Source: Pseudomonas sp. DTU_2021_1001937_2_SI_NGA_ILE_001 (lineage in GTDB: Bacteria; Pseudomonadota; Gammaproteobacteria; Pseudomonadales; Pseudomonadaceae). Taken from it: a stretch of DNA of 64,000 bases. The notes beneath the pieces are model-generated. The model searched no databases. It saw only the letters and a program-made list of their open reading frames with translations, and was not told the origin of the DNA. The position numbers were made by a program, and so were the translations under genes. Below are positions 43,140 through 61,324 of this stretch, piece by piece (positions within the stretch are counted from its first letter, which is position 1; the number at the start of each line of letters is the position of its first letter). Where the stretch lies: assembly GCF_032463525.1 (NCBI RefSeq), contig NZ_CP135971.1, positions 4,154,001-4,218,000 of the forward strand, given 5' to 3'.

Positions 43140-43200
43140 TTATGCAATCCAATATATTGTTCGACCCGTTTGATAGGTTTTACGAATCATTGAGGTGGGT

Positions 43201-44155: not shown

Positions 44156-45382
44156 TCAAGGCCAGCGGCGGAAGATCAGCGAGGTGTTGACGCCGCCGAA
44201 GGCGAAGTTGTTGTTCATCACGTACTCGTTGCTCATGGCCCGCGGGGCGTCCTTGAGGTAGTCCAGCTCGCCGCACTGCGGGTCGATGTGCTCCAGGTTC
44301 AGGGTGTGGATGTAATGGTCGCGCTTGAGCATCTCGATACTGAACCACGACTCCAGCGCGCCACACGCGCCCAGGGTGTGGCCGAGGAAGCTCTTCTGCG
44401 AGCTGATCGGCATGCGTGGGCCGAACAGCTCGCAGGTGGCCAGGGTCTCGGCGATGTCGCCCTGCTCGGTGGCGGTGCCGTGGCCGTTGACGTAGCCGAT
44501 CGCGCCAGGCGCCAGCGCGGCGTCCTGCAGCGCCAGCTCCATGGCGCGGCGCATGGTCACCTGTTCCGGGCGGGTGCTGTGCGCGCCGTCGGCATTACTG
44601 CCGAAACCGACGATCTCGGCATGGATGCGCGCACCGCGTGCCAAGGCGTGTTGCAGTTCTTCGAGCACCAGCATGCCGGCGCCTTCGCCGATCACCAGGC
44701 CATCACGCCCGGTGTCGTAGGGGCGCGGGCTGCTTTGCGGCGCGTCGTTCTTCAGGCTGGTGGCGTACAGCGCATCGAACACCATGGCCTCGGTGGGGCA
44801 CAGTTCTTCGGCGCCACCGGCGAGCATCATCGGCAGGCGGCCGAACTTGATCGCCTCGTAGGCGTAGCCGATGCCCTGGCTGCCGCTGGTGCAGGCGCTG
44901 GAAGTGGGGATCAGCCGCCCGGTGAGACCGAAGAAGATGCTGATGTTCGCCGCCGTGGTGTGCGGCATCATGCGCACGTATGAATTGGCGTTCAGGCCAT
45001 CGGCCACCGAGTTGAGCAGCATGTTGCCGAACGCCTTGATCTCTTCGGTACTGCCGGTGGACGAGCCGCAGGCGGTGCCCATGCGCCCGTCGCGGATCAG
45101 CGGGTCGTCGAGCAGCCCGGCGTCGCGCAGCGCCTGTTCCGAGGCCGCCACCGCCAGGCGCGACACCCGGCCCATGCTGCGCAGTTGCTTGCGGGTCCAG
45201 TGCGCCGGCACCTCGAAATCGTCCACCGGCCCGGCCAGGCGCGTGTTCAGTTCGCTGAAGCGATCCCACTCCGCCATGTAGCGAATGCCGCTGCGGTTGG
45301 CGGCGAAGTTCGCCGCGATACGCTCCCAGTCGCTGCCCAGTGAGGTGATGCCGGCCATGCCGGTCACGACAACGCGCTTCAT
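44156..45382 (-). CDS. apeR: APE beta-ketoacyl-ACP synthase (ApeR-type, FabF-like)
   Basis: 408 residues. Condensing enzyme with an intact Cys-His-His set: Cys164 (SSACTSGSQGIG), His301 (NGHGTATEQGD) and His335 (SFLGHTLGACG), plus the Lys of SSQKS. In Xenorhabdus the ApeR homodimer takes part in APE chain building (family knowledge). ATG 45382 overlaps the ketoreductase stop by one base (TGATG) and has GGAGG about 9 bases upstream; GTG 45388 and TTG 45385 are poorer. Last gene of the cluster. Confidence 0.93.
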   Translation of the reverse strand: MKRVVVTGMAGITSLGSDWERIAANFAANRSGIRYMAEWDRFSELNTRLAGPVDDFEVPAHWTRKQLRSMGRVSRLAVAASEQALRDAGLLDDPLIRDGRMGTACGSSTGSTEEIKAFGNMLLNSVADGLNANSYVRMMPHTTAANISIFFGLTGRLIPTSSACTSGSQGIGYAYEAIKFGRLPMMLAGGAEELCPTEAMVFDALYATSLKNDAPQSSPRPYDTGRDGLVIGEGAGMLVLEELQHALARGARIHAEIVGFGSNADGAHSTRPEQVTMRRAMELALQDAALAPGAIGYVNGHGTATEQGDIAETLATCELFGPRMPISSQKSFLGHTLGACGALESWFSIEMLKRDHYIHTLNLEHIDPQCGELDYLKDAPRAMSNEYVMNNNFAFGGVNTSLIFRRWP

Positions 45383-46110
45383 CAACACAACCCTCCATTG
45401 ACCGCCAGCACCTGGCGGGTGATGTAGGCCGCCTCGGCGGACATCAGGAAATTCACCGCGCCAGCGACTTCTTCCGGGGTGCCCATGCGCTGCGCCGGGA
45501 TCATCTTCATCAGCTCTTCCACCGGCACGTTCTCGTCGAGCATCGCCGTGTCGATCAGCCCGGGGGCCACGCAGTTGACGGTGATCCTGCGCTTGGCCAG
45601 TTCCACCGCCAGGGCCTTGGCCGCACCGATCAGGCCGGCCTTGGAGGCGCTGTAATTGACCTGGCCACGGTTGCCGATCAGCCCGGACACCGAGGTGATG
45701 CAGACGATCCGCCCAGGTGCGCGGCGGCGGATCATCGGCATGCTCAGCGGGTGCAGCACGTTGTAGAAGCCATCGAGGTTGGTGCGGAGCACCTGGTCCC
45801 AGTCGTCGTCACCCAGCGCCGGGAAGGCACCGTCACGGGTCAGCCCGGCATTGAGCACCACGCCGTAGTAGGCACCATGGGCCTCGACGTCCTGCTCCAG
45901 GATGGCCTTGCACGCCGCACGGTCGGACACATCGAACTGCAGCACACGGGCCTGGCGGCCCAGTGCCTGGATCTCGGCCTGCACCGCCTCGGCCTCGCGT
46001 CGGCCGCTGCGGCAGTGCAGTACCAGGTCGTAGCCGGACTGTGCCAGGCGCAGCGCGATGGCCCGGCCGATGCCGCGGCTGGACCCGGTGACCAGGATGG
46101 ATTCAGTCAT
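45382..46110 (-). CDS. apeQ: APE 3-oxoacyl-ACP reductase (ApeQ-type, FabG-like SDR)
   Basis: 242 residues, short-chain dehydrogenase/reductase. NADPH-binding TGSSRGIG (residues 8-15), NAG at 87-89, catalytic Ser140 in CITSVSG, Tyr153 and Lys157 in YSASK. Reduces the 3-keto group in each polyene elongation round. It overlaps the upstream dehydratase by 8 bases and the downstream ketosynthase by 1. Confidence 0.95.
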   Translation of the reverse strand: MTESILVTGSSRGIGRAIALRLAQSGYDLVLHCRSGRREAEAVQAEIQALGRQARVLQFDVSDRAACKAILEQDVEAHGAYYGVVLNAGLTRDGAFPALGDDDWDQVLRTNLDGFYNVLHPLSMPMIRRRAPGRIVCITSVSGLIGNRGQVNYSASKAGLIGAAKALAVELAKRRITVNCVAPGLIDTAMLDENVPVEELMKMIPAQRMGTPEEVAGAVNFLMSAEAAYITRQVLAVNGGLC

Positions 46111-46561
46111 GCGTGGGCTCCTTGGCCAGGTATTGGGCGGTGTTGGGCGGGCAATAGACGTTGAGACGGGCGAAGGCCTGGATGCCGGGGCCGCTCAGGG
46201 TGCATTCGAACACGCCCATGCCGCTCTCGTCTTGCAGTGAACGCTGGGCGTGGATGTGCAGCTCGCTGCCGGCAGGGAAATGCTCGGCATTGCATTCGAA
46301 GCGGCGGGTGCCCAGCAGAAAGCCCAGGCGTACCGGTTCGCCGCGCTGGCGCGCCTGGCAGCCGGCGAAGGCCGCCACGCTCTGCGCCATCAGCTCGATG
46401 CCGACCCAGGCCGGCAGGCTGCCGTCGGGGGCGTTGAACAGGCCACCGGGGCGAACGCTCAGGCGGGTCTGGATACTGTCGTCGTCGAAGGCCAGCACCT
46501 GATCGATGAGGATCATGTCAGCAGCGTGCGGCACCAGTCCGGCGACCGGCCAGTCGGTCAT
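46103..46561 (-). CDS. apeP: APE 3-hydroxyacyl-ACP dehydratase (ApeP-type, hotdog fold)
   Basis: 152 residues, single hotdog domain. The putative catalytic His12 (VPHAADMILID) and Glu56 (WVGIELMAQSVAAF) match the FabZ-like arrangement. Family work shows ApeP pairs with ApeI to dehydrate the growing polyenoyl-ACP; here the ApeI-like domain is fused to the ligase (see 56740-58443). Overlaps apeO by 4 bases and apeQ by 8. Confidence 0.92.
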   Translation of the reverse strand: MTDWPVAGLVPHAADMILIDQVLAFDDDSIQTRLSVRPGGLFNAPDGSLPAWVGIELMAQSVAAFAGCQARQRGEPVRLGFLLGTRRFECNAEHFPAGSELHIHAQRSLQDESGMGVFECTLSGPGIQAFARLNVYCPPNTAQYLAKEPTHD

Positions 46562-47751
46562 GGCGCGTCTCCGATAATCAGGCTGATGTTGTTGCCCCCG
46601 AAGGCGAACGAGTTGCTCATCAGGTAGCGGGGCGTGTCACCGGGCAGGCGGCTGTGCGCGCCGGTCCAGCTCAGCGCCGGTAATTGCGGGTCGGCCTGGC
46701 CGTCCCAGACGTGCGGCGGCAGGGCGCGGCGGGTATTGTCCGGCGTCAGGCACAGCCAGCAGAACGCCGCTTCCAGTGCCCCGGCGGCGCCCAGGGTGTG
46801 GCCGCTCATGGCTTTGCTCGACGAGCAGGGCACGCCTTGGGGAAACAGCGCCTGCACGGCCAGGCTTTCCATGGCGTCGTTGTGCAGGGTGGCGGTGCCA
46901 TGCAGGTTCAGGTAGGCGATCTGGCTGGCCTGCAGGCCGGCGCTGTGCAGCGCGCGCTGCATCGATTCGCGAGCGCCACGGCCACTGGGCTCCGGCGCCG
47001 AAATGTGGTGGGCGTCGCTGCTGGCTCCGGCTCCGAGCAAGGCGATGCCCGGTGTATCGCCCGCCTCGCGGGTCATCAGAAACAGTGCCGCCGCCTCGCC
47101 GATGTTGATGCCATCACGATTGCGCGAGAACGGGTTGCAGCGTTGCCGCGACACCGCTTCCAGAGCGGTGAAACCGTTGAGGGTGAGCTGGCACAGGCTG
47201 TCCACGCCACCGCACAGCACCGCGTCGCACAGGCCCAGGTCCAGAGCACGGCGGGCGCTGAGCAAGGCCCGGGCGCTGGAGGTGCAGGCCGTGGAAATCA
47301 CATACGCCGGGCCGCTGAGCTGCAGCCACTCGGCGAGGAAATGCGCCGGGGCGCCAAGCTCCTGCTGCTGATAGTCGTAGTGTTCGGGAAAGCTCCGGTC
47401 GCGCAGCCAGGTGCCCAGGCTGCGGCTGGCCTCATCGATACCCGAGGTGCTGGTGCCGAGAATCACGCCGATGCGCGAGGCGCCGTAGCGGGCAATGGCG
47501 GCGCGAATCGATGCTTCGATCTGCAACGCGGCAGCCAGCAGCAGCTGGTTGTTGCGGCTGTGCATACCGAGGTGGCCGGGTATCGCCGGCAGCTCGCCAC
47601 GCACCGCACCCACCGGCAGCTCGATACCGGGCACCCAGCCTGCCTCGTGGCGCATGCCGCTGCTGTCCCCGGCAAACAGCGCGCGCGCCACGCTGTGTCG
47701 GTCATTGCCCAGCGCGCAGACCAGGCCCAGGTCATTGAGGTAGGCGGTCAT
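46558..47751 (-). CDS. apeO: APE beta-ketoacyl-ACP synthase (ApeO-type)
   Basis: 397 residues. Second condensing enzyme, with Cys156 (ISTACTSSARAL), His284 (NLHGTATLHND) and His318 (MSGHTLGAAG), so it is catalytically complete. In characterised systems ApeO acts as the KS partner of the chain-length-factor-like ApeC. Start ATG 47751 overlaps the lipoprotein gene in an ATGA. The frame is open upstream but lacks homology there. Confidence 0.93.
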   Translation of the reverse strand: MTAYLNDLGLVCALGNDRHSVARALFAGDSSGMRHEAGWVPGIELPVGAVRGELPAIPGHLGMHSRNNQLLLAAALQIEASIRAAIARYGASRIGVILGTSTSGIDEASRSLGTWLRDRSFPEHYDYQQQELGAPAHFLAEWLQLSGPAYVISTACTSSARALLSARRALDLGLCDAVLCGGVDSLCQLTLNGFTALEAVSRQRCNPFSRNRDGINIGEAAALFLMTREAGDTPGIALLGAGASSDAHHISAPEPSGRGARESMQRALHSAGLQASQIAYLNLHGTATLHNDAMESLAVQALFPQGVPCSSSKAMSGHTLGAAGALEAAFCWLCLTPDNTRRALPPHVWDGQADPQLPALSWTGAHSRLPGDTPRYLMSNSFAFGGNNISLIIGDAP

Positions 47752-48233
47752 GGGCGGTTTCCTTGGTCGAGCGGGCTGATGCGGTAGTGCAGGCCCCCGG
47801 GCAATTGCAGTTCCAGGCGTGGGGCGGCGCGGTAGTCGACGACCCAGCGCGTGCCCAGCTGGCGCAGCATGCCTTGTTGGCGCGCTTCGGGGTAGCGTCT
47901 TGCCAGCTCCGCTTCCGGAGTCAAGGCAAACAGCAGCGCGGCAAACAGCTCGCGGGCCTGCGGGTTGGGCGGCAGCAGGCCATCGGCCTGCCATTGGCCG
48001 TCGACCAGGCGCTGGCGGGCCTGGGGAATGCCCAAGGGGTCCATCATCGACCAGCGCAGCGCGCTGTCTTCGCGTTGCACGATCAGCAGCGCGTCCTCGC
48101 GCTGGCCGGCCTGCTCGCGTTCGACATGCCACTGGCTTGGCAGCGCCAGTGTCGGCAAACCCACCGGCAGCGGCGCCTGCGCCGCACAAGCGGCCAGCAG
48201 CACAGTGAACAGCAGGGCGAACAGGCGCTTCAT
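47748..48233 (-). CDS. DUF3261 lipoprotein (ApeN-type)
   Basis: 161 residues. Lipoprotein signal peptide MKRLFALLFTVLLAACAAQ with lipobox LAAC (Cys16). The mature part resembles DUF3261 proteins, which occur almost only in APE-type clusters; it is likely an outer-membrane partner in moving or anchoring the pigment, perhaps working with the LolA-like protein. Overlaps apeO and the methyltransferase gene by 4 bases each. Confidence 0.85.
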   Translation of the reverse strand: MKRLFALLFTVLLAACAAQAPLPVGLPTLALPSQWHVEREQAGQREDALLIVQREDSALRWSMMDPLGIPQARQRLVDGQWQADGLLPPNPQARELFAALLFALTPEAELARRYPEARQQGMLRQLGTRWVVDYRAAPRLELQLPGGLHYRISPLDQGNRP

Positions 48234-48964
48234 GAGGCGCTACCCGCCAGCGGCTTGCGCGCCACCACGTTGACCAGGGTTTCCTCGCGCTGGCCGAACG
48301 GCTTGGGCTTGCGCAATTTCAACAGCTCCAGCAGGCCGAAGTCGCTGGAACGGCTCCACCACAGGTAGGGGTAGGAGACATTGCCCGCGCCGAACTCGAA
48401 GCCCTGGCCGCGCAGCATGTCCAGGTACTGGGCGGCGCTCTTTTGCACGTGCATGGGGTGGCGGAACAACCAGCGGATCACCCAGGTGTCGATGTAGGCC
48501 TCGGTGGATTCGGCGAACAGCAGGTAGCCGCCAGGCTTGAGCACCCGGTAGAACTCGGCCAGGGCCTGCTCCTGCTCCACCAGGTGGTGGAAGGTCTGGT
48601 GGCAGAACAGCAGGTCGACGCTGGCGTCGGGCAGCGGCAGGCTGGCGCAGTCGCTGCCGATCAGCTCGACATCCAGACCCAGCCGCGCGGCCTCGCTGGC
48701 GCTCTGTTCGAGGCTGTGCGGGTCGGCATCCACGCCGATGATGCGCGTGGGCTGGAACACCCGCTGCAAGTGCAGGAACGACTTGCCCTGGCCGCAGCCG
48801 GCGTCCAGCAGCACCGCCTCGCCGGGCGGTGGCGCGTCGAACAGCCCGCGCAGGTCCTCGATCGCCACCCGCAGCACCCAGTACTGCCAGGTGTAGCTGC
48901 GCAGGAACCACAGGCCGAAGCGGGTCTCTTCGACGTAGCTGTCGCTCAGGTACGGACCGCTCAT
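48230..48964 (-). CDS. SAM-dependent methyltransferase of the APE cluster
   Basis: 244 residues, class I methyltransferase. Motif I VLLDAGCGQGKSFLHL (about residues 51-66), acidic end of beta2 GVDADPHSLEQ, then the VDLLFCHQTFHHLVEQEQAL and VLKPGGYLLFAEST blocks. Target not determined; aryl ring C-methylation or O-methylation is known in aryl polyenes. ATGA-type overlaps on both sides. Confidence 0.88.
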   Translation of the reverse strand: MSGPYLSDSYVEETRFGLWFLRSYTWQYWVLRVAIEDLRGLFDAPPPGEAVLLDAGCGQGKSFLHLQRVFQPTRIIGVDADPHSLEQSASEAARLGLDVELIGSDCASLPLPDASVDLLFCHQTFHHLVEQEQALAEFYRVLKPGGYLLFAESTEAYIDTWVIRWLFRHPMHVQKSAAQYLDMLRGQGFEFGAGNVSYPYLWWSRSSDFGLLELLKLRKPKPFGQREETLVNVVARKPLAGSAS

Positions 48965-50208
48965 GAGGCCTGGCTCGCACAGACTTCAGCGAGCATGCGC
49001 AGGCGCCGCTTGGGCTCGCTGACGAAGGGGTTGTTCAGGTCCCAGGCGTAGCCGGCGAGGATCGAGCTGATCATTGCGCGGATATCGGCCTGGCCGCCTT
49101 CGAAGAAGATCACGTCCTGGAAGCTGCCGTCGTACCAGCCCTCCACGTAGGCGCGGAAGGTGTCCACACCGCGCTTGAGCGGCACGGCAAAATCCTGTTC
49201 CCAGTCCACCGCCTCGCCGCGCAGCTGGCGGTCCAGCAGGTGGGCAGCCATGCTCGCCGAACGCATGGCGATGGTCACCCCGGAGGAAAACACCGGGTCG
49301 AGGAATTCCGCGGCGTTGCCCAGCAGCGCGAAGCCGGGGCCGTGCAGGCGCTTGACGTTGGCCGCGTAGCCGCCGATGGTCCGCGCCGGGGTGTCCCACA
49401 CGGCGTGCTTCAGGGTGTCGCGCAGGCGCGGGGTCTCGTCGATGAAGGCGCGCAGGCAGGCGTCCAGGTCCTGGGGCTGCTCGGCAAAGCGTTCGGCACT
49501 GGCCACCACGCCCAGGGAGCAGCGGCCGTTGCTGAAGGGAATGGTCCAGAACCACACGTCACGGTGCTCGGGGTGCACGCTGACGAGGATCTTGTTGCGG
49601 TCGAAGGCCGGGTCGTCGATGTGGTCCTCGACATGCGTGAACACCGCCTGGCGCAGCGGAAAGCCCGACGGTGCTTCGAGGTCGAGCAGGCGCGGGAGCA
49701 CGCGGCCGTAGCCGCTGGCGTCGAGTACGAAGCCGGCCTGCAGGGAGTACTGGCTGCCGTCCTCACGGCGTACTTCCAACAGCCCCTGGCCACTGCTGAA
49801 GTCGGCGCCGAGCAGTTCTTCCTGGTAGCGGATCTCCACGCCCTGCAGCGCCGCCTGGTCGGCCAGCAACTGGTCGAAGTCGGCACGCTGCACTTGGAAG
49901 GTGCTGGGCTTGCCGGGGGTGAAGGTGTTGCCGAAGTCGAAGTCGGAATAGCGCTCGCGCCAGGCGAAGGCTGCGCCATTCTTGTACTGGAAGCCCGCCG
50001 CCTGCACGGCGTCGAGCATGCCGGCTTCCTCGACGAAGTCCAGGCAGTGCGCCAGCAGGCTCTCGCCGATGGAGAAGCGCGGGAAGCGCTGGCGTTCGAG
50101 GATCAGCACGTCGTGGCCCTTGCGCTTGAGCAGCGCGGCGGCGATGGCGCCGGCCGGCCCGGCGCCGATGATCACCACCGGGCGATATTCCATATCAGTG
50201 CTTGGCAC
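48961..50208 (-). CDS. FAD-dependent oxidoreductase with flavin-halogenase signatures
   Basis: 415 residues. FAD Rossmann motif GAGPAGAIAAALLKRKG (15-31), then the GES segment, Lys76 in the YKNGAAFAW block at the place of the halogenase catalytic lysine, WFWTIP (219-224) matching WxWxIP, and FLDPVFSSGVTIA. These are features of the tryptophan-halogenase/geranylgeranyl-reductase group; xanthomonadin clusters carry a relative and their product is brominated. Some members are not halogenases, so the activity is uncertain. GTG at 50208 with AAGGAG 5 bases upstream is chosen; ATG at 50193 is the alternative. Overlaps the MMPL gene by 14 bases. Confidence 0.85.
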   Translation of the reverse strand: MPSTDMEYRPVVIIGAGPAGAIAAALLKRKGHDVLILERQRFPRFSIGESLLAHCLDFVEEAGMLDAVQAAGFQYKNGAAFAWRERYSDFDFGNTFTPGKPSTFQVQRADFDQLLADQAALQGVEIRYQEELLGADFSSGQGLLEVRREDGSQYSLQAGFVLDASGYGRVLPRLLDLEAPSGFPLRQAVFTHVEDHIDDPAFDRNKILVSVHPEHRDVWFWTIPFSNGRCSLGVVASAERFAEQPQDLDACLRAFIDETPRLRDTLKHAVWDTPARTIGGYAANVKRLHGPGFALLGNAAEFLDPVFSSGVTIAMRSASMAAHLLDRQLRGEAVDWEQDFAVPLKRGVDTFRAYVEGWYDGSFQDVIFFEGGQADIRAMISSILAGYAWDLNNPFVSEPKRRLRMLAEVCASQAS

Positions 50209-52564
50209 AGTGACTCCTTACCGGTCGGTCGGTTGCCTTGTCGATTGAGTGGGGGCTGGCGGCACTGGCCCAGGGTGCCAGCAGGAAGCTGAACACCAGG
50301 CCCAGGCTCACCGCCAGGCCGAAGTTGCTGATCGCCGGTGTCTGCGACAGCGCCAGCAGGCCGAACGACAGCCAGGTGGTGAGGGCCGCCAGCAGGGTGC
50401 CGAGCAGGCTCACTGCGGCGCCACCGACCTGCTCGCGCATGAGGATCGCGTAGTCGACGCTGATCGCGGTGACCAGCAGCAGGCCGAACAGGCTGAATAG
50501 CGTCAGCGGCTGACCCAGCCAGCCGAGGCTGGCCAGACTGCACAGCGCGGCGAGCAGCGGCAGGGCGACGATGCGCACGGCCCCGCCGAGGCCGAACGGG
50601 GCGATCAGCAGGGCGACGATCAGCACGCAGGACAGCAGCTTGAGTTCGGCAGCGCTGACCTGGGTCTGGGCGAATACGCCATTGAGGGCGCCCAGGCGGT
50701 CCACCAACTGCACGCCGGGCAGGTCCTTGGCCTGGGCCAGCAGCACCTGTGGATCGCCCAGGCCTTGCAGGCTGACGATGGCGGCCACGCCGTCGCCATC
50801 ACGACCCAGCCACAAGGGGCGCCAGGCTTCGCTGAGCGGCCCGGCCAGGGCCTGCTCGATACCTTGCAGCGGCAGCGCCTGCAGCTGCTGCAGCTCGGCG
50901 TGCAGCGCGGCGTCGCTGACCCCCAGGGCGAGCAGCGGCTGCCAGTATTCCGGCAAGCGAGCCAGGGCCGTGCGGGTAGCCTGCTGGTCGGCGGTCGAAG
51001 CGAGCAACTGGCCGAGGGCCATATAGCCGCGCAGCTGGCCGTTGCCGACCTGTGTGTCGAGGCGTTGGGTGAGGGCGCGCTGGCGTTCCAGCAACTGCTG
51101 TTCGTCTTGGGCGCGGATGAGGAAGAACTGGCTGGTCGGCTGGTAGCCGGTGATTCGCGCGATGGCCCGGGCTTCGTCAGTCAGGGCGGCGGGGGCGGAA
51201 ATCCACTGGCGGATATCGTTGCGGGTGCTCAACTGCCACAGGCCCGCCGCACAGAACGCCGCCAGCAGCGCCAGCAGCATGGGCGTACCGACTCGGCGCA
51301 GCAGGGCCTGACGTGCGTCGAGCAGGCGTTGGGCGAGATCCAGTGGCCACTGCGCCGGGCGCAGTTCGACCCGCGCCAGCAGCGCCGGCAGCAGGCACAC
51401 GGCGGTGAGGTAGGCGCCCAGCAGACCGGCGGCGGAGAAGGCGGCGATCTGGGTCAGTGCCGGGAACGGCGTCCAGGCCAGGGCCAGGTAGCCGATGCAG
51501 CTGGTGATCAGGCTCAGGGTCAGGCCCGGCAGGGTCACACGCAACGCCGGCCAGGCCCGCCAGGGCTTGAGGCTCCAGCTCTTGGACAGGTAGTGCAGCG
51601 GGTAGTCCACGGCCACGCCGATCAGGCTGGAGCCCAGCACCAGAGTCATGACGTGCAGGGTGCCGAACAGCGCCACGCAGGCCACCGCGCCGAACAGCAT
51701 GCCCACCAGCACCGGCACGAAGGCCAGCAGCACGCGCCAGCGGCGGAACGCCAACAGCAGCAGCAGGAGAATGCCGAGGGTGGCGCCACCACCGACCCAG
51801 GTGATTTCCTGGCGTGCCTGCTGCTGGCCGGCGGCGGCGTACAGCAGGCCGCTGGCCGCCAGCAGTTGGCCGTGGGCCTGGGTGACCTGGTTGCGCGCTT
51901 CGGCCACCTGCGCGGCGACCCGCGTCGGCAGCTGCAGGTCGAAGGCATCGCCAGCAGTGCGCACGCGCAGCAGCACCCATTGCTGGCCGTCGGCCTCGGC
52001 GACCAGCGCACCACTGGCGAGGTCCGGCTGTACCGCGCCGGTGCGCGGCAGGCCGTTCTGGATGCGCCCGGTCAGCCCCAGCCAGTCGTCCTGGCCGGGC
52101 ACCAGGCTGAAGCTGGCGAAGGGGTCGAACAGGCTCTGCACGCGCTGTTCGATGAAGCGCTGCGGTTGTTCGATCAGCAACTGGCGGTCTGCTGCCGGGA
52201 GCATCGCCAGGCGGCCCTGCAGCAGTTGCGTGCGGATCGCCGGCAGGTCGGCGGCGAGGTTCCACTGGACCTTCTCGAACAAGCCGCTGGCCTGCCATTG
52301 CGCAGCCAGCTCACGGGTCAGGTCGATGGCACGCTGGCGTTCGGCATGCCCGACCAGCACCAGCATTTCCCGGTTCAGCGGTTCCTGCATGCGCTGCTCG
52401 GCGCGCAGCTCCAGCGGATCGGGACGGCTGCCCGGCACCAGATCCATGAGGTTGGCCGACAGCGGCGCGCCCTGCCGCCACTGCCAGCCGGCCACGGCCA
52501 GCACCGCCAGCAAAATCAGCAGGAACAGGCGCGGCAGGCGCCGCTCAGGATTGGAAATCTTCAC
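50195..52564 (-). CDS. MMPL/RND-family exporter of the APE cluster (ApeM-type)
   Basis: 789 residues. Two repeated RND modules: a membrane helix (about 10-30) and a large periplasmic domain, five helices from VGGGATLGILLLLLLAF, then a second periplasmic domain and another five-helix block (SCVLIVALLIAPFGLGG). The acidic residue pairs of proton-driven RND pumps appear in GVAVDYPLHYLSKS and AISVDYAILMREQ. Likely moves the polyene lipid across the inner membrane or extracts it from that membrane. Overlaps the LolA-like gene by 20 bases. Confidence 0.92.
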   Translation of the reverse strand: MKISNPERRLPRLFLLILLAVLAVAGWQWRQGAPLSANLMDLVPGSRPDPLELRAEQRMQEPLNREMLVLVGHAERQRAIDLTRELAAQWQASGLFEKVQWNLAADLPAIRTQLLQGRLAMLPAADRQLLIEQPQRFIEQRVQSLFDPFASFSLVPGQDDWLGLTGRIQNGLPRTGAVQPDLASGALVAEADGQQWVLLRVRTAGDAFDLQLPTRVAAQVAEARNQVTQAHGQLLAASGLLYAAAGQQQARQEITWVGGGATLGILLLLLLAFRRWRVLLAFVPVLVGMLFGAVACVALFGTLHVMTLVLGSSLIGVAVDYPLHYLSKSWSLKPWRAWPALRVTLPGLTLSLITSCIGYLALAWTPFPALTQIAAFSAAGLLGAYLTAVCLLPALLARVELRPAQWPLDLAQRLLDARQALLRRVGTPMLLALLAAFCAAGLWQLSTRNDIRQWISAPAALTDEARAIARITGYQPTSQFFLIRAQDEQQLLERQRALTQRLDTQVGNGQLRGYMALGQLLASTADQQATRTALARLPEYWQPLLALGVSDAALHAELQQLQALPLQGIEQALAGPLSEAWRPLWLGRDGDGVAAIVSLQGLGDPQVLLAQAKDLPGVQLVDRLGALNGVFAQTQVSAAELKLLSCVLIVALLIAPFGLGGAVRIVALPLLAALCSLASLGWLGQPLTLFSLFGLLLVTAISVDYAILMREQVGGAAVSLLGTLLAALTTWLSFGLLALSQTPAISNFGLAVSLGLVFSFLLAPWASAASPHSIDKATDRPVRSHCAKH

Positions 52565-53138
52565 GCTGCGCGTCGCTCAGGGCTGGAAGGGCGTGGCTGT
52601 CGAGCATCTTCAGCACGGTGCGGTCGCCCTGGGTTTCGTGCAGTTCGATCTGCCGCACCAGCTCACCGCCTTCGATGTCGATCTGCTTGAAAACCTGCTG
52701 CAGCAGCATCGAGCGCGGCACCAGCACCAGTTTCCAGGCCTGCGCGTCGCCGCTCAGTTGCAGTTCGAAGTCGCGCTGCAGGCCGCTGCTGTCGCCTTGC
52801 AGCACGGCCAGGAACAGGCGGTTCTGCTCGGTGCCGGCCGCCTTGCCGGGCAGTTTCTGCCAGCCCTGGGCGTCGCGGCGGGCGATACCGTCGGCGGTAA
52901 TGCGATAGTCCTGCTTCAGCGGCGCTTCGAGCAGCCACAGCAGGCCGAACTGCCGTGCCAGCACGAAGTGCCCGGTGCTGGTCAGCGGCTGCGGCAGGGC
53001 GCGCAGGTGCTTTTCCTGGATGAAGCGACCCTCGATGGCCGACGGTCGCGACAATTGTTCGCTCAGTTGTTGCAGGTCGAAGGCCAGGGCCTGCGCCGAC
53101 AGGCACAGCAGGACCAGGGCGGTGAACAGGCGCTTCAT
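52545..53138 (-). CDS. LolA-like outer-membrane carrier protein (ApeL-type)
   Basis: 197 residues. Cleavable signal peptide (MKRLFTALVLLCLSAQALA). The mature beta-rich LolA/LolB-like fold is suggested by SAIEGRFIQEKHLRAL and FVLARQFGLLWLLEAP, the latter resembling the LolA segment before its hydrophobic cavity. Probably ferries the lipidic pigment through the periplasm, rather than lipoproteins. Overlaps the thioesterase gene by 4 bases. Confidence 0.87.
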   Translation of the reverse strand: MKRLFTALVLLCLSAQALAFDLQQLSEQLSRPSAIEGRFIQEKHLRALPQPLTSTGHFVLARQFGLLWLLEAPLKQDYRITADGIARRDAQGWQKLPGKAAGTEQNRLFLAVLQGDSSGLQRDFELQLSGDAQAWKLVLVPRSMLLQQVFKQIDIEGGELVRQIELHETQGDRTVLKMLDSHALPALSDAQREDFQS

Positions 53139-53560
53139 GACAGAGCCCTCTGCACGGCGTCGACGAAGACTTTCGGCGAGGCCAGCTGCATCTCGCGGCT
53201 GGCACTTTCCACCGCGACCTGCACGGTGCTGGCGCGGGTCAGGCGTTCACCGGTGGCGGCGTCGCTGATCAGGTAGTTGATCTTCAGGCGGTTCTCCCAC
53301 TCGACCAGGCTGGCGCGCACGATCAGCTTCTGGCCGAACACCGCCGGGCGCACGTAGCGCAGTTGCAGGTCGATCACTGGCCAGCCGTAGCCGGACGCGC
53401 GCATCTGCATGTAGTTGTGGCCGATGTGGTCGAGCAGCGCGCAGCGCGCCACTTCCAGGTATTTCACGTAATGGCCGTGCCAGACGATGTCCATCATGTC
53501 CACGTCGAAGAACGGCACCAGCACTTCGGTTTCGATGTCGATCAGGCCCTTACCGCGCAT
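53135..53560 (-). CDS. apeK: 4HBT-type acyl thioesterase (ApeK-type)
   Basis: 141 residues, single hotdog thioesterase. The putative catalytic segment VDMMDIVWHGHYVKYLEVAR fits the 4-hydroxybenzoyl-CoA thioesterase pattern with Asp and the GH(Y/V) loop. It may release the finished chain or clear stalled ACPs. The start at 53560 (MRGKGLIDIETEVLVPFFDVD) lies 11 bases inside the end of the ammonia-lyase gene; the frame is open upstream without homology. Confidence 0.9.
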   Translation of the reverse strand: MRGKGLIDIETEVLVPFFDVDMMDIVWHGHYVKYLEVARCALLDHIGHNYMQMRASGYGWPVIDLQLRYVRPAVFGQKLIVRASLVEWENRLKINYLISDAATGERLTRASTVQVAVESASREMQLASPKVFVDAVQRALS

Positions 53561-55097: not shown

Positions 55098-56016
55098 CGG
55101 GCTTCCAGAAAGGGTAGAAGTTGAACCACTGCTGCGGTGCCTGCAGGCAGTAATGGGCCAGGCGTTCGGCGTAGCGGGCGGCCCAGTGGGCGATCACCTC
55201 GGCGCGGTCGCTGCGTTTCCATTGCACGGCGTCGGTGAACGGTTCGAGGATCATCCGGTAGCCCTGGGCATCCTTGAGGCAGAAGAACAGGTTGACCGGG
55301 CACTTGAGCAGCCCGGCCAGCAGCCAGGGGCCTTGCGGGAAGGCCGCTGGCTGGCCGAGGAAGTCGACCTGCACGATGCGCCCGCCATGCAGCGGCACGC
55401 GGTCGCCGGCGATGGCCAGCCACTCGCCGTTGTCCAGGCGCTGGCTCAGTTGCAGCATGATCGCCGGGTCCAGCTCGCTGACCTGCACCAGGCGCAGGTG
55501 GGTGGCTCCCGCCTCACCGAGCAGGCGGTTGAAACGCTCGGCGTGCTTGGTGTGCACCAGGACGTTCATGGTCACTTTCTCGCCCAGCTCGGCCAGCGCC
55601 CGGCACACCTCCAGGTTGCCCAGGTGTGCGCCGACCAGCATCTGCCCACGCTGGCCGCGCATCTGCCGGCGCAGCCCGGCCGGGTCGTCCAGGCGGATCT
55701 GCTCGACGTCCAGCTTGCCGTTCCACACGTCGAGCTTGTCGAGCAACGAGTCGGCGAAGGCCATGAACTGGCGAAACACCCGCCCGGTGCTGGGGCGCAG
55801 GCCTGGCTGGCCGCTCCAGCGCGCCAGGTTGCGGTGAAATTCGGCGATGCTGCGCCGTGCGGTGCGGCCGAACACGAAGAAATACAGCACGATGCCGTAC
55901 AGCATCGGCGTGAGCAGGCGCCGACCGAGCAGGCGCACCGCCCAGGCGGTGAGCTTCATCAGTGCAAAACTGCCGCGCTCTTCGCGGTCGGCCCAGTGCC
56001 GAGGGTCGTGGCTCAT
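55078..56016 (-). CDS. LpxL/HtrB-family lipid acyltransferase of the APE cluster
   Basis: 312 residues. Bacterial lipid A acyltransferase family; HX4E catalytic motif as His131-LGNL-Glu136 (VGAHLGNLEV), and a hydrophobic N-terminal helix (about 34-52). It probably attaches an acyl chain to the glycolipid anchor or esterifies the polyene. It follows the glycosyltransferase with an ATGA overlap; in related clusters glycosyltransferase and acyltransferase domains may be one protein, so this could be a split version. Confidence 0.88.
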   Translation of the reverse strand: MSHDPRHWADREERGSFALMKLTAWAVRLLGRRLLTPMLYGIVLYFFVFGRTARRSIAEFHRNLARWSGQPGLRPSTGRVFRQFMAFADSLLDKLDVWNGKLDVEQIRLDDPAGLRRQMRGQRGQMLVGAHLGNLEVCRALAELGEKVTMNVLVHTKHAERFNRLLGEAGATHLRLVQVSELDPAIMLQLSQRLDNGEWLAIAGDRVPLHGGRIVQVDFLGQPAAFPQGPWLLAGLLKCPVNLFFCLKDAQGYRMILEPFTDAVQWKRSDRAEVIAHWAARYAERLAHYCLQAPQQWFNFYPFWKPDESSSS

Positions 56017-56747
56017 GGACGCACCTTGCGCCACAGCAGCACTGGCAGGCGCAGCAACATGCCGAAGAACAGCTTGGCGTGCATCTTGGAAATCAGCGCA
56101 TTGTCGTGGAACAGGCGAAAGTGCGAGCGGCCGTCGGCGGGGTAATGGACGCGGATCGGCAGCCAGAGCATCGGCTGGCCGCGCCAGAACAGGCGCACCA
56201 GGATCTCGGTGTCGAAGTCCATGCGGCGGCCCAGGTGCACCGCATCGATCAGGCGCAGCACCGGCTTGAGCGGGTAGATCCGGAAGCCGCACATCGAGTC
56301 GCGGATCTGCAGCGACAGGGTGTTGATCCACACCCACACGTGGGTCAGGTAGCGCGCATACAGGCGCCCCTTGGGCACGCTGGCGTCGTACTGCGGGTAG
56401 CCGCATACCAGCGCCTCGGGGTGCTGGTGCGACAGCTGCAGGAAGCGCGCGAGGTCGCTCAGGTCGTGCTGGCCGTCGGCGTCCACCTGCAAGGCATGGC
56501 TGTAGCCGCGCTGCGCCGCTTCCTGGAAACCGGCCATTACCGCACCGCCCTTGCCCTGATTGACCGGCAGGCGGATCAGGTGCACGCCGTCGCGCTGCGC
56601 CAGCGCCTGCAGCACCTGGGCGCAGGCCGGGCCGCTGCCGTCGTCGACCAGTACGCAGGGCAGGCCGGCCAGGCGCAGTGCATCGACCACGTGGGTGACC
56701 GCGTGTTCATGGTCGAACACCGGGATCACGGCGCAGGGGTTATGCAT
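56013..56747 (-). CDS. Family 2 glycosyltransferase of the APE cluster
   Basis: 244 residues. GT-A fold: N-terminal CAVIPVFDHEHAV, LVDDGSGPA, and the metal-binding DADGQHD motif, with a hydrophobic C-terminal patch (KLFFGMLLRLPVLLW). Resembles dolichyl-phosphate mannose synthase-like enzymes acting on lipid carriers. Likely builds a sugar link in the membrane anchor. Start 56747 overlaps the ligase gene by 8 bases. Confidence 0.9.
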   Translation of the reverse strand: MHNPCAVIPVFDHEHAVTHVVDALRLAGLPCVLVDDGSGPACAQVLQALAQRDGVHLIRLPVNQGKGGAVMAGFQEAAQRGYSHALQVDADGQHDLSDLARFLQLSHQHPEALVCGYPQYDASVPKGRLYARYLTHVWVWINTLSLQIRDSMCGFRIYPLKPVLRLIDAVHLGRRMDFDTEILVRLFWRGQPMLWLPIRVHYPADGRSHFRLFHDNALISKMHAKLFFGMLLRLPVLLWRKVRP

Positions 56748-58443
56748 GCTCGGGCTCCGTGGCGATCGGCCCGTCCAGCAGGATGCGGCCACTGGAGCAG
56801 GGCTGCTGGTCCAGGTTGTGATAGGCGAAGTGCAGCTTGTTGCGGGTGCTGTCGAAGCGCAGGGTCAGGCTCAATTGGTCGCCGGGGCGTACCAGTTGCT
56901 GGAACTTGATCACTTCCATGCCGGCGAAGCGCGGGGGCAGGTTCAGCAGGCGCTGGCCCAGTTGCACGGCCCAGTCCAGCTGCACCACGCCGGGCAGCAC
57001 CGGGGAGCGCGGAAAGTGCCCGGTGAAGAAGGCCAGGTCGGGGGGGACCCGCAGGTCGAGGTGCAGGCCGTCGTCGCTGCGGTGTTGTGCCAGCAGTTCC
57101 GGCTCTTTGCCCCGTGGCGCGGCCAGCAGCTCATCGATACGTGCCTGGGGCAGCTTGCCTTGGGCATTGAGCGGCAACTGGCCCAGCAGCCGCCAGCGGC
57201 GCGGCAGCGCCAGGGCTTCGCAGTGGCCACGCAGGTGCTCGCGCAGCGTTTCGGTCAGGGCTCGGCGACCGCCCTCGCGCAAGGCCTGCAGGCCCGCCGC
57301 GCTGAGTACCGCCAGCACGCCGAGGTAGGCACGGCGTTCGCGCACCACGCCCAGACGCGCCTCGCTGACCCAGGCATGGCTGGCCAATGCCTGCTCCAGT
57401 GCCGGCAGGGCGATGCGTTTCTCTTCCAGTTTGACGATACGGTCGAGGCGGCCGAGCAGTTCGAAGCGCCCATCGGCCTCGAAGCGAACCGCGTCGGCCG
57501 TCTGCTCGACGTGCCCGACGGGCAGGTACGGCGAGCGCACCTGCAGGGCGCCCTGATCATCGCCGCTCAGCTGCACGCCGTCGAAGGCCTGCCACAGCGG
57601 CTGGCCCTGGCGCCAGGCGATGCCGCCAGTTTCCGAACTGCCGAGAATCTCGCAGGGCCATTGGCCCAGGCGCTGCTGCAGGCTTTGCGCGGCGTCGCCG
57701 GGCAGTGCACCGCCGGAAGAAAACACCCGGCGCACCGCGCTCAGGGCCGGCCAGTCGAGGTTGTCGCCCATGCGCTTGAGCAGCGCCGGGCTGGCCACCC
57801 AGGCGAAGCGCGGGTACTGGCGGCTGACGCGCTGCAGGTCTTCGGGAAACGGCACTGGCAGGCGCACCCACTGACGCCCGGCGCACAGTGGCCACATCAC
57901 GCGGAACAGCAGGCCATAGATGTGCTGGGCGGCGACGCTGCCGATCATGCAGGCATCGCCCAACTGAGCGCCCCACAGGCGTTCCAGGCCGCGCACTTCG
58001 TTGTCCAGCTGGCGCAGGCGTTTGTCGATGCGCTTGGGCTCGCCGCTGGAACCTGAGGTGCACAGGCTCAGCTGGCAGGCGTCGAGGTCCAGGGCGGCTG
58101 GCGCCAACGGCGCGCTGGTGCACAGTTCGGCCAGGCTGGCGTCGCCGGCGTGGGGGCTGAGCCAAAGGTCGACCTGTGGCGTCCAGCGCTCGCGGGTCTG
58201 CGCCTGCAGGTCGGCAGGCAGCAAGACGCTGGCCCCGGCACGCCAGGCGGCGAACAGCGCGACCACCAGCTCCCCGGCGTCTTCCAGGTGCACGGCCAGG
58301 CGCCGCACCCCGCGTTGTTGCAGGGCGGCCGCGGCGCACAGTGCCTGGTGGCGGAACTGCGCAAGGGTCATGTCCGGCGCCTGGCACAGCAGGCGCTCGG
58401 GCTGCTCGTCGAGCAGCAGGTGTTCAAGGTTCGACCAGTTCAT
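56740..58443 (-). CDS. Aryl-acid AMP-ligase fused to a hotdog dehydratase domain (ApeH-ApeI fusion)
   Basis: 567 residues. The N-terminal ANL adenylation domain has P-loop [13 protein letters not shown] (about 126-138), a [12 protein letters not shown]5 region and catalytic A10 lysine 430 (NAQGKLPQ). Residues about 455-560 form a FabA/FabZ-like hotdog with the catalytic-type histidine 476 in [20 protein letters not shown]. In E. coli and Xenorhabdus these are separate proteins, ApeH (activates 4-hydroxybenzoate) and ApeI (dehydratase). Here one frame covers both with no stop between. ATG 58443 was chosen; GTG 58461 would overlap the upstream gene by 8 bases. Confidence 0.9.
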
Positions 58444-58453
58444 CGCATTCACT

Positions 58454-58999
58454 TCAAGCACCGCCTCGGACCCGGCGGCGGACCATCCATTCGCCTGCGA
58501 ACAGCAGGCCCATCAAGACGTAGGACAGCAATCCGGTCCACAGCGCCCACCAGTGCAGCGGCGCCCACAGGGTCAGCGCGGCCGTGGTCAGGCCGTTGAA
58601 CAGAAAGAACCCGCACCACACCCAGGTCACCTGCCGCGTGTAGCGCACCCCCGACTCGGGCATGTCCGGCTCGCGCAGCCGCGCCAGGCGTTCGACCAGC
58701 GGCGGCCCCTGAATGAGGCTGCTGCCGAACAGGCCGAGCATGAAGACGCTGATCAGCACCGGGTACCAGCGCAGCAGCACGGGGCTGTCGAGCAGCGCCA
58801 GCAGCAGGCAGAAGCCCAGGGCGACCGCCGCCATGGCCAGGGTGCCGGGGCGGCGCTCGCCGCTGAGCAGCCGCGCCAGCCACAGGCCGCCCAGCAGCAG
58901 GGCGAACTGCCAGGGGGCGAAGTGCTCGATACCCAGGTAGACCACGATGGGGTAGAGCACACCGGCCAGCACCAGCAGCAGGCCCGCCAGCCGCTTCAT
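58454..58999 (-). CDS. COG4648-type membrane protein of the APE cluster
   Basis: 181 residues, about six hydrophobic helices with short loops. It belongs to the small membrane protein family typical of APE clusters (COG4648). Function not established; proposed to work in the membrane assembly or export of the pigment. Overlaps the second ACP gene by 4 bases. Confidence 0.85.
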   Translation of the reverse strand: MKRLAGLLLVLAGVLYPIVVYLGIEHFAPWQFALLLGGLWLARLLSGERRPGTLAMAAVALGFCLLLALLDSPVLLRWYPVLISVFMLGLFGSSLIQGPPLVERLARLREPDMPESGVRYTRQVTWVWCGFFLFNGLTTAALTLWAPLHWWALWTGLLSYVLMGLLFAGEWMVRRRVRGGA

Positions 59000-59250
59000 G
59001 CGGCGGGGCTGACCATGCGGTAGACCGCTTCGACCACGTCGTTGACCGTACGCACCGACTTGAATTCCTCGGCGGCGATCTTTTTTCCGGTCTTGCGCTT
59101 GATGTGGTCGATCAGGTCCACGGCATCGATGCTGTCGATTTCCAGGTCCTGGTAGAGGTTGGCCTCCAGGGTCACACGCTCGGGCTCGATCTCGAACAGC
59201 TCTACCAGCGCGGTGCGCAGGGTTTCGAAGATGTCGTCACGGGTTTGCAT
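58996..59250 (-). CDS. apeF: Acyl carrier protein (ApeF-type)
   Basis: 84 residues. Four-helix ACP with phosphopantetheine Ser40 in DLEIDSIDAVDLI. It probably carries the extending malonyl/polyenoyl chain, distinct from the starter-carrying ACP. ATG 59250 has GAGGA 6 bases upstream; TTG 59256 is less likely. Nine bases after the first ACP gene. No cluster-encoded phosphopantetheinyl transferase is present, so a housekeeping one must act. Confidence 0.92.
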   Translation of the reverse strand: MQTRDDIFETLRTALVELFEIEPERVTLEANLYQDLEIDSIDAVDLIDHIKRKTGKKIAAEEFKSVRTVNDVVEAVYRMVSPAA

Positions 59251-59259
59251 GATCAATCC

Positions 59260-59520
59260 TCAGGCCGATTGCCGGGCGCTGACGAAGGCCGCGAGGCTGT
59301 CGACGCTGGTGAAGTGCGAGCGGGTGTCCTTGGCTTCGGCGTCGATCTTGATGCCGTAGCGCTTCTGGATGGCCAGGCCCAGTTCCAGGGCGTCCACCGA
59401 GTCCAGGCCGAGGCCTTCGCCGAACAGGATCTGGTCGTCGCCGATGTCCTGGGTGGTGATGTCTTCGAGGCCCAGGGCATCGATGATCAGTTGCTTGATG
59501 TCACGGTGCAGATCGCTCAT
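59260..59520 (-). CDS. apeE: Acyl carrier protein (ApeE-type)
   Basis: 86 residues. Phosphopantetheine Ser41 in GLGLDSVDALELG. Family knowledge assigns the first ACP (ApeE) to receive the aryl starter from the ligase. The start at 59520 (MSDLHRDIKQLIIDALG) overlaps the acyltransferase gene by 20 bases; the frame is open upstream but not homologous. Confidence 0.92.
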   Translation of the reverse strand: MSDLHRDIKQLIIDALGLEDITTQDIGDDQILFGEGLGLDSVDALELGLAIQKRYGIKIDAEAKDTRSHFTSVDSLAAFVSARQSA

Positions 59521-60307
59521 CTGGGGCGAGCTCCTTGATGAAATAGTCGTGCAGGTAATCGTTGAGCTTGCGTGAGGCCAGCGGTGGCGGGCCCATCTCG
59601 TTGAAACGCTGCGGATCGATATCGGTACCGACACGCAGGCTGAAGTGCACGCGGCGTTGCGGTATGCGGTACCAGGGTTCGGCTTTGGTCAGGGTGGTGG
59701 GGTGGACCACGATGGTCACCGGGGTGATGACCTGCGCCCCGCGCAGGGCGATGGCGGCGGCGCCGCGGTGGAAGGCTGGCGGCTGACCCGGCGTGGTGCG
59801 CGTGCCCTCGGGGAAGATCACCAGGGTCTGTCCGGCCTGCAGGCTGCCGACCGCCAGGTCGAGCATGTCGATGCTGCCGTCGTTGCTGACGTAACCGGCG
59901 CGGCGCACCGGCCCGCGGGTGCAGGGGTTGTCCCAGAGGCTGCGCTTGACCACGCAGTTGGCGTCGCGCACCAGGCCGATGAGGAACACCACGTCGATCA
60001 GCGATGGGTGGTTGGCGATGATCATCTGCCCTGGCCGGCCGAGCTTTTCGGCACCCTGCACCTCGTAGGTGAGTACGCGCAGGCGCGCCATGATGCGGAT
60101 GAAGCGCCAGAACAGCAGGCTGATGGTGTAACGCGCGCGGCGCTGATGGCTGGCGGCGTCACCGGGCAGACAGGCCAGCACCGGAAACACCAGCACGCGC
60201 AGGCACAGGCCGCCCAGACCGAACAGGGCGAAGCTGGCAGCGGTGGCCAGCAGGCGCCAGTAATAGGCATCGCGGTGCTTGCTCAGTGATTGCGTTGCCA
60301 GGTCCAT
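59501..60307 (-). CDS. PlsC-family 1-acyl-glycerophosphate-type acyltransferase (ApeD-like)
   Basis: 268 residues. Membrane-associated N-terminus (about 18-45), HX4D motif NHPSLID (His100, Asp105), and FPEGTR substrate motif near 170. Lysophospholipid acyltransferase family; together with the LpxL-like enzyme it suggests that the pigment is joined to a glycerolipid-like anchor. Start 60307 has GGAAGAAG upstream and lies 25 bases inside the end of the preceding gene, the longest overlap in the cluster. Confidence 0.88.
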   Translation of the reverse strand: MDLATQSLSKHRDAYYWRLLATAASFALFGLGGLCLRVLVFPVLACLPGDAASHQRRARYTISLLFWRFIRIMARLRVLTYEVQGAEKLGRPGQMIIANHPSLIDVVFLIGLVRDANCVVKRSLWDNPCTRGPVRRAGYVSNDGSIDMLDLAVGSLQAGQTLVIFPEGTRTTPGQPPAFHRGAAAIALRGAQVITPVTIVVHPTTLTKAEPWYRIPQRRVHFSLRVGTDIDPQRFNEMGPPPLASRKLNDYLHDYFIKELAPDERSAP

Positions 60308-61002
60308 AAACGCTTCTTCCACGGATGTTGGCAGGCAGGCTGATCGGCATGCAGGGTCTGGAGCAGACTCAGGGCGTGTGGCCAGCGCGAAGGCTGCGCA
60401 TCGGCCCCGGCGCTGTCCAGGGACAGGCTCCAGGTGTCGCCGGGGGTCAGCAGCAGCCCCACGGCATAAGGAAAGGGCACGTCGTCGATCCACTGGGCGT
60501 AGGCTTCGGGCGGTCGCTCTTCGGTGATGATCAGCAGCACCGCGGCAGCGCCCTCGGCGAGCAGCGTGGCGGCCTCGAAAACCCCGTGCTCCAGGCCATC
60601 GCCAGCGGCGGCCAAGGCCGTCATCTCGCAGGTGGAGCCGCGCATGATCGACCACAGGCCGATCACCGCGTTATGCACCGACAGGCTGAACTGGGTCGGC
60701 GACAGCGGCTCGCCGGCGGCCAGGTCGCGCAGGATCTCGAAGGTGCGTGGGGTTTCGCCATGGCGCGAGACGAACACCAGGGGCAGCTGCTCATGGTCTT
60801 GCGCCAATGGCCAGCCGACGGCGAACGCCATGCGTGCCATGCGCCCAAGGCGACGGCGCTGCATGGCCGGCAGGAAGGATACGTCCGGGGATTCGTCGTG
60901 ATCGGGCAGCGGGCGGGGCGCCAGGCTCCACTGCTGCCAGTCTTCGACGCTGGCCAGGCCAGGCGCCCAGGCACGCCATTGTGCGATGTTGAACGTGATC
61001 AA
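60283..61002 (-). CDS. apeC: Half-size ketosynthase-like protein (ApeC-type chain-length factor candidate), TTG start
   Basis: 239 residues, matching only the N-terminal half of ketosynthases (PF13723-like): RMARMAFAVG, SPTQFSLSVHNAVIGLWSIMRG and the following AALAAGDGLEHG-like stretch where a nucleophile elbow would fall. No Cys lies in a recognisable (A)C(A/S)xG context, so it should be catalytically inactive; ApeC in Xenorhabdus pairs with ApeO as chain-length factor. No in-frame ATG precedes MITFNIAQWRAW; TTG 61002 with GGGAA 5 bases upstream is the probable start. First gene of the operon. Confidence 0.82.
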   Translation of the reverse strand: MITFNIAQWRAWAPGLASVEDWQQWSLAPRPLPDHDESPDVSFLPAMQRRRLGRMARMAFAVGWPLAQDHEQLPLVFVSRHGETPRTFEILRDLAAGEPLSPTQFSLSVHNAVIGLWSIMRGSTCEMTALAAAGDGLEHGVFEAATLLAEGAAAVLLIITEERPPEAYAQWIDDVPFPYAVGLLLTPGDTWSLSLDSAGADAQPSRWPHALSLLQTLHADQPACQHPWKKRLWTWQRNH

Positions 61003-61034
61003 AGTTTATTCCCGCCCCTGCGGACTGCTTCTTT

Positions 61035-61056
61035 TCGTCCCGGTGACACGGGACGA
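61035..61056 (-). promoter_or_regulatory. Leader hairpin of the APE operon
   Basis: Arms TCGTCCCG (61035-61042) and CGGGACGA (61049-61056) with loop GTGACA, between the predicted promoter and the first APE gene. A possible mRNA-level control element or regulator half-sites. Confidence 0.4.
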
Positions 61057-61092
61057 CACCGACCTTGGCGTGACTATTGACCGAGTGCGCGC

Positions 61093-61121
61093 ATTATCCA
61101 GATGGGGGTCCGGAGTAGCAA
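61093..61121 (-). promoter_or_regulatory. Candidate sigma70 promoter of the APE operon
   Basis: On the minus strand: TTGCTA (61121-61116), a 17-base spacer and GATAAT (61098-61093), about 90 bases before the TTG start. The 322-base intergenic region up to parA also holds ACACA-TTATC-TGTGT (61130-61144 region), a small inverted repeat that may be an operator. No promoter for parA was assigned. Confidence 0.5.
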
Positions 61122-61324
61122 ATTTGTTACACATTATCTGTGTGCCGCATCGCTATTTCCGACTGAAGGCAAGCCTGACGGGTGCCTGCATGCGGGTTTT
61201 GATGAAGCAAATGCCCTGAGCTGGTACGCCCGTACCCGGTTGTCATCTAGATTGCCTGGACTCGCATGATGCTCAGGTCCACACTGACCCGTTTCCAATT
61301 TTTGCCAATTCGGGAGGGCGAACG

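Follow-up and report, generated by a model that had tools for sequence, protein, structure and literature searches.

Among the aryl polyene (APE) pigment clusters that have been characterised, the published nearest relative of those found in Pseudomonas is APE Vf of Vibrio fischeri (MIBiG BGC0000837), which includes an ammonia lyase (PMC5851621, PMC8719888; here and below, papers are cited for the parts of their text that were available). Flexirubin clusters likewise start from a Tyr/Phe ammonia lyase (PMC3992019), and the xanthomonadins of Xanthomonas come from a type II polyketide synthase APE cluster with a halogenase gene (PMC3691225), the starter being hydroxybenzoate supplied by a XanB2-type chorismate enzyme (PMC3949708). 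Compared with these systems and with the apeA-R cluster of Escherichia coli CFT073, a compact 19-gene run on the minus strand, from 61002 to 44156 of a 64,000-nucleotide stretch of the chromosome of Pseudomonas sp. DTU_2021_1001937_2_SI_NGA_ILE_001 (contig NZ_CP135971.1, positions 4,154,001 to 4,218,000; hereafter the window), is very probably an intact Pseudomonas APE operon of the kind standard for the genus, most likely inherited vertically.

The run was delimited by Pfam and NCBIfam scans together with inspection of reading frames, and its genes overlap their neighbours or sit close to them. From 61002 onward they are as follows.

60283..61002, minus strand, ApeC-type chain-length factor (Ketoacyl-synt_2), first operon gene; PF13723, 263 bits; start codon TTG as listed
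59501..60307, minus strand, ApeD-type lysophospholipid acyltransferase; PF01553; ATG start by inspection
59260..59520, minus strand, acyl carrier protein (ACP) 1, ApeE-like, attachment site DSVDAL; PF00550
58996..59250, minus strand, ACP 2, ApeF-like, attachment site DSIDAV; PF00550, NF003757 over cut-off
58454..58999, minus strand, ApeG-like membrane protein; 47% identity to the E. coli CFT073 cluster; no Pfam family
56740..58443, minus strand, acyl-ACP ligase (ApeH-like) fused with an ApeI-like dehydratase; PF00501, PF22818
56013..56747, minus strand, family 2 glycosyltransferase, equivalent to the first half of E. coli ApeJ; PF00535
55078..56016, minus strand, LpxL-type acyltransferase, equivalent to the second half of E. 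coli ApeJ, overlapping the glycosyltransferase stop; PF03279
53550..55097, minus strand, aromatic amino acid ammonia lyase of the 4-methylideneimidazole-5-one (MIO) type; PF00221, 535 bits; ASG, FH switch, NQD motif
53135..53560, minus strand, ApeK-like hotdog thioesterase; PF13279
52545..53138, minus strand, ApeL-like LolA-family chaperone; PF19574; NF053544 below cut-off
50195..52564, minus strand, ApeM-like MMPL/RND exporter; PF03176
48961..50193, minus strand, halogenase-like flavoenzyme; PF04820; NF033113 below cut-off; K71, WFWTIP; PDB 3nix, 3e1t, 3i3l
48230..48964, minus strand, S-adenosylmethionine-dependent methyltransferase; PF08241
47748..48233, minus strand, ApeN-like DUF3261 protein; PF11659 E 0.006, below cut-off; conserved position
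46558..47751, minus strand, ApeO-type ketosynthase; PF02801/PF00109; NF006618 over cut-off
46103..46561, minus strand, ApeP-type dehydratase; PF22817, 85 bits
45382..46110, minus strand, ApeQ-type FabG2 ketoreductase; NF004200 and TIGR01831 over cut-off
44156..45388, minus strand, ApeR-type ketosynthase, last operon gene; NF006587 over cut-off

The domain content fits an APE cluster except for the ApeG-like protein, which has no Pfam family, and the DUF3261 protein, which scores below cut-off. Encoded together are ketosynthases and an ApeC-type chain-length factor, ApeI-like and ApeP-like dehydratases with a FabG2-like reductase, dedicated ACPs with an aryl-ACP ligase, and lipid-anchoring acyltransferases with LolA/MMPL export genes. 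No enoyl reductase was found in the cluster, the sole such label being Pfam's name for PF13561 on ApeQ, a protein that passes the FabG/FabG2 cut-offs. Active-site patterns were present in the ketosynthases, ACPs, ketoreductase, ligase, ApeI- and ApeP-type dehydratases, family 2 glycosyltransferase, LpxL-type acyltransferase, methyltransferase and lyase; the pattern search of the ApeD acyltransferase gave no match, though PF01553 matches it. An earlier, sequence-only reading had proposed that a Pseudomonas chromosome holds a complete pigment cluster of the APE type, and the domain content and intact frames bear this out: no internal stop lies in any of the 19 frames. The functions it listed hold, with the gene count rising from 18 to 19, and the glycosyltransferase/acyltransferase set that it called split does consist of two genes, the first ending at 56013 and the second starting at 56016. 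A frameshifted fusion was considered for this pair, whose longest frames overlap by about 400 bases, and was rejected because the likely true starts leave a 4-base stop/start overlap.

In tblastn searches, 15 of the 19 window proteins matched the E. coli CFT073 cluster; the lyase, flavoenzyme, methyltransferase and DUF3261 protein found no match there, and the E. coli stretch has its own gene annotated DUF3261. Both clusters contain a chain-length factor, ketosynthases, a ketoreductase, dehydratases, ACPs, a ligase, a thioesterase, glycosyltransferase and acyltransferase functions, LolA-like and MMPL proteins and a DUF3261 gene, with nearly the same core order. Unlike the window, the annotated E. 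coli stretch is without an ammonia lyase or flavoenzyme, has a different methyltransferase at the opposite end, keeps the ligase and small dehydratase as separate genes, and combines glycosyltransferase and acyltransferase in a single 1677-base gene, annotated as a glycosyltransferase and elsewhere named glycosyltransferase/acyltransferase ApeJ (PMC8253772). The likeness to flexirubin clusters extends to matches with the flexirubin lyase, LolA2 and FlxB models, all below cut-off, and to relatives of the flavoenzyme in Bacteroidota. No dialkylresorcinol genes (DarA/DarB) were recognised among the 19 genes or in their immediate flanks, and no XanB2-type gene of the kind that starts xanthomonadin synthesis was seen in the window cluster.

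Within Pseudomonas, 298 congeneric genomes were sampled and 237 of them contain the ApeP family PF22817, every match lying over the family cut-off; none of 14 control genomes does. Twenty-kilobase stretches were read at 60 of the 237 positive loci, a non-random choice that favoured long contigs among the better-scoring matches listed. The full set of 19 genes, in the order of the window, was present at 52 of these 60 loci, and the supposedly unusual gene complement is therefore the standard one for the genus. Comparison of the locus across Pseudomonas genomes, which the sequence-only reading had suggested, in this way revealed a common layout instead of a variant. The methyltransferase alone was missing from six loci (L039, L042, L045, L054, L056 and L073), where under 100 bases separate the flavoenzyme match from that of DUF3261; these operons constitute a natural test of what the methyltransferase contributes to the pigment. 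Another locus (L071) was a remnant retaining only ApeP, ApeQ and ApeR. The ApeC match spanned less than 80% of the query at 13 loci, several of the 60 had a stop within the exporter or ligase-fusion match, and two (L016 and L061) had several shortened matches each.

The lyase and flavoenzyme also recur outside the genus, which further undercuts the claim of an unusual complement. Of 274 genomes sampled from the class, 36 gave a match (the window genome counted), 28 of them over cut-off, and regions of at most 20 kb were fetched from 20 of the 35 other matching genomes, making the presence counts lower bounds. At profile scores above 200 bits, at least 8 of these 20 regions held the lyase, at least 11 the flavoenzyme and at least 4 both, and none held the methyltransferase family. 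A scan of named genomes with the Methylotuvimicrobium flavoenzyme (L077) as query gave 104 relatives, and the 80 best of them were retained. At least one ketosynthase, ketoreductase, dehydratase or exporter profile matched in the same stretch for 76 of these 80; of all 80, 25 had the lyase and 9 the methyltransferase (8 in Pseudomonas, 1 in Porticoccus). Among the loci reached through the flavoenzyme, the APE clusters of Stutzerimonas, Atopomonas and Achromobacter/Bordetella have a similar gene order including that gene. Unlike the window, the stretches read showed no methyltransferase of its family in Stutzerimonas or Atopomonas, and neither methyltransferase nor lyase in Achromobacter or Bordetella. 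This distribution suggests an operon of Stutzerimonas/Achromobacter type that in Pseudomonas would additionally hold a methyltransferase. APE-type lyases with 60-65% identity were also found on large replicons filed as plasmids in Burkholderia, Caballeronia, Pseudoalteromonas and Acinetobacter, several of them adjoining a thioesterase gene.

The lyase itself is an MIO enzyme with the GASGDL motif that passes no NCBIfam cut-off. In an alignment of the window sequence with 57 of the 58 lyase-bearing congeneric loci, all 58 sequences have Gln in motif 2 (HNQDKVSMG) and a Phe-His switch; of the 8 lyases from other class genomes, 7 share the Phe-His switch and 1 has Tyr-His instead. Motif 2 carries Gln in Phe/Tyr lyases and Glu in His lyases (PMC3992019), and a histidine ammonia lyase (hut) was rejected on the absence of that Glu. 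The His expected at the first switch position of a tyrosine ammonia lyase was not found in any of the 58 sequences, which have Phe there. This switch rule is not decisive, because the flexirubin lyase FlxA, whose switch is likewise atypical, is active on Tyr and Phe and not on His (PMC3992019). From these residues we take the substrate to be Phe or Tyr, with no choice made between the two.

The chromosomal surroundings bear on how the operon came to be where it is. In the window the order is gltB-gltD-hemE, a major facilitator superfamily (MFS) gene, LysR, the ape genes, ParA, a PAAR protein and SelO, and the identities given earlier to the MFS, LysR and ParA neighbours were correct. The genes immediately outside the operon are:

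43195..44097, plus strand, LysR regulator; PF00126, PF03466
61325..62104, plus strand, ParA-family ATPase; PF13614

The window shows the standard Pseudomonas APE arrangement, in which LysR and ParA enclose the 19 genes in their usual order. Across eight sets of flanks, one of them a remnant (G091), LysR was present in 7, MFS in 7, ParA in 8 and SelO in 7; within the stretches fetched, G202 had no MFS or LysR and G094 no SelO. Inside the 20-kb stretches of the 60 loci, LysR was seen in 25, ParA in 24 and either in 37. Among the 61 cluster-lacking genomes, 20 were checked, and in all 20 hemE and the best ParA match share contig and strand, lying 0.1-16 kb apart versus about 20 kb in the window. 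Ten emptied sites were read: 8 of them have both LysR and ParA, with under 250 bases between the two in 6, 1.4 kb in L115 and 0.8 kb in L117, while L121 was without LysR and L122 without MFS and LysR. The gap in L117 holds a stranded DUF3261 gene of the cluster (123 bits to a custom profile; no Pfam family), and its presence at an emptied site points to loss, as does the ApeP-Q-R remnant of L071, also at the usual site. Read from neighbouring genes, the pattern of conserved flanks and of emptied or remnant sites indicates that the ape cluster has a single usual home from which it is occasionally lost.

A different history, in which a variant cluster with a product unlike other Pseudomonas APEs was acquired laterally at a flexible locus, draws on the GC content of the cluster (68.3%, versus 65.2% for the window), on the adjoining hemE-MFS interval, which takes other cargo (about 12 kb in 4 of the 20 cluster-lacking genomes, L113-L116), and on the 23 of 60 loci whose flanks were unseen in the fetched stretch. 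The shared gene order, the LysR and ParA neighbours, the constant hemE-ParA linkage and the stranded genes all speak against it, as does a published comparison in which the gene-cluster families of Pseudomonas, those of APEs included, mostly track species phylogeny (PMC8942027). A lateral island was rejected for the conserved neighbours and remnants in the flank sets and sites read, and we consider lateral acquisition of such a variant highly improbable; the earlier proposal of an insertion at a flexible locus is likewise not supported, with emptied sites lying between the same outer neighbours. The pattern also agrees with the vertical inheritance that has been suggested, without test, for APE clusters of plant-associated bacteria (PMC10469690).

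Some observations weigh against an intact, genus-standard operon inherited in this manner. Neither LysR nor ParA fell within the 20-kb stretch at those 23 loci; longer flanks for three of them showed both neighbours in two and ParA only in one (G202). The substrate signals of the lyase are mixed, with Phe as first and His as second switch residue and Gln in motif 2. Finally, one locus of the 60 (L036) lacks the lyase alone, with a 68-base gap where it would sit, and at least one congener therefore starts otherwise or obtains its starter elsewhere; its operon offers a natural test of starter origin.

In the neighbourhood of the operon, the hemE-MFS insert of L114 holds type II secretion genes and a lytic polysaccharide monooxygenase by Pfam, and this interval is thus variable in content. 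The small PAAR-motif protein gene lies at 62126-62527, between ParA and SelO, and a relative adjoins ParA in 4 of the 8 flank sets. The divergent intergenic region upstream of the operon (61003-61324) contains a single weak sigma-70-like match (1 found, 0.3 expected), which lies at 61121-61093 of the minus strand.

A Lys and a WxWxIP motif together with a flavin adenine dinucleotide (FAD) motif are marks of flavin-dependent halogenases, and the window flavoenzyme carries all of them, its Lys71 aligning with a Lys of CmlS. The FAD motif, Lys71 and WxWxIP occur in 59 of 59 congeneric copies, and Lys and WxWxIP in 11 of 11 copies from other class genomes; among the best 80 of the 104 named-genome relatives, all 80 have WxWxIP, 77 the Lys by pattern and the remaining 3 by eye. 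The nearest solved relative is PDB 3nix (370 bits), named only a flavoprotein/dehydrogenase; after it the best are halogenases, including CmlS (3i3l) and PltA, and 3e1t also matched. On such residues and relatives the flavoenzyme may halogenate the aryl ring, and Pseudomonas APEs would then be halogenated like xanthomonadins and some flexirubins, given that brominated xanthomonadin clusters carry halogenase genes (PMC3691225) and flexirubins differ in ring chlorination (PMC3992019). We hold this only tentatively, as somewhat doubtful, since 3nix carries no assigned function and Azoarcus arcA is termed a halogenase, but no halogenated arcuflavin is described alongside it (PMC3949708). That the enzyme is instead a hydroxylase or another oxidoreductase acting on the pigment is quite possible, if short of probable: it also scores, though never over cut-off, to models for the QhpG monooxygenase and for geranylgeranyl reductase, while the invariance of the halogenase marks in every copy examined argues the other way. 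Halogenase genes are known in xanthomonadin-type clusters (PMC3691225) and Azoarcus (PMC3949708), and the flavoenzyme gene is therefore no new element.

A pathway can be proposed by carrying over activities, product and role from E. coli, Xenorhabdus and flexirubin producers to genes whose identities and conservation were observed here. The lyase would deaminate Phe or Tyr to cinnamate or coumarate, which the ligase would load onto an ACP. Ketosynthase and chain-length factor, with the ketoreductase and two dehydratase activities, would extend this starter with malonyl units, each reduced and dehydrated with the double bonds kept, to give an aryl polyene acid. Methyltransferase and flavoenzyme would decorate the ring, and the acyltransferases and glycosyltransferase would join the aryl polyene to a lipid. 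Its transport to the outer membrane, where the pigment, predicted to be yellow, may quench reactive oxygen, would fall to the MMPL, LolA-like and DUF3261 proteins. The phenotypes of E. coli APE deletions and experiments in vitro on Xenorhabdus, both recounted in PMC8253772, support such a pathway, and the Tyr/Phe lyase activity of FlxA (PMC3992019) supports its lyase start. A phenylpropanoid-started, possibly halogenated APE is a testable prediction from the gene content.

The window cluster is a known and common Pseudomonas cluster, correctly read. Among the gene-cluster families of Pseudomonas type strains, the largest was made up of 58 aryl polyene clusters, and no MIBiG entry fell in the biggest networks of clusters in that survey (PMC8942027); a second survey found aryl polyene clusters in 23 of 37 species (PMC8704066). 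In a Pseudomonas pan-genome study the ammonia lyase serves as a gene typical of aryl polyene clusters (PMC8719888), the connection that this gene makes with V. fischeri has been pointed out (PMC5851621), and for marine Pseudomonadaceae APE variants were drawn and chemical characterisation called for (PMC10165715). In the available parts of these five papers, Pseudomonas APEs are handled at the genome-mining level only, and on the weak basis of the open-licence literature it is plausible that their product has yet to be described.

Pseudomonas commonly carries the cluster, which should not be taken for a new variant. What a gene-cluster family so widespread in Pseudomonas makes is apparently unsolved, and the lyase and halogenase-like enzyme yield concrete, easily tested predictions about the pigment. 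It is rather unlikely, in our estimate, that the genus-wide Pseudomonas APE forms a chemically undescribed subclass, methylated, halogenated by a dedicated flavin halogenase and started from lyase-derived cinnamate or coumarate; if it did, an organohalogen pigment would lie in the outer membrane of most pseudomonads.

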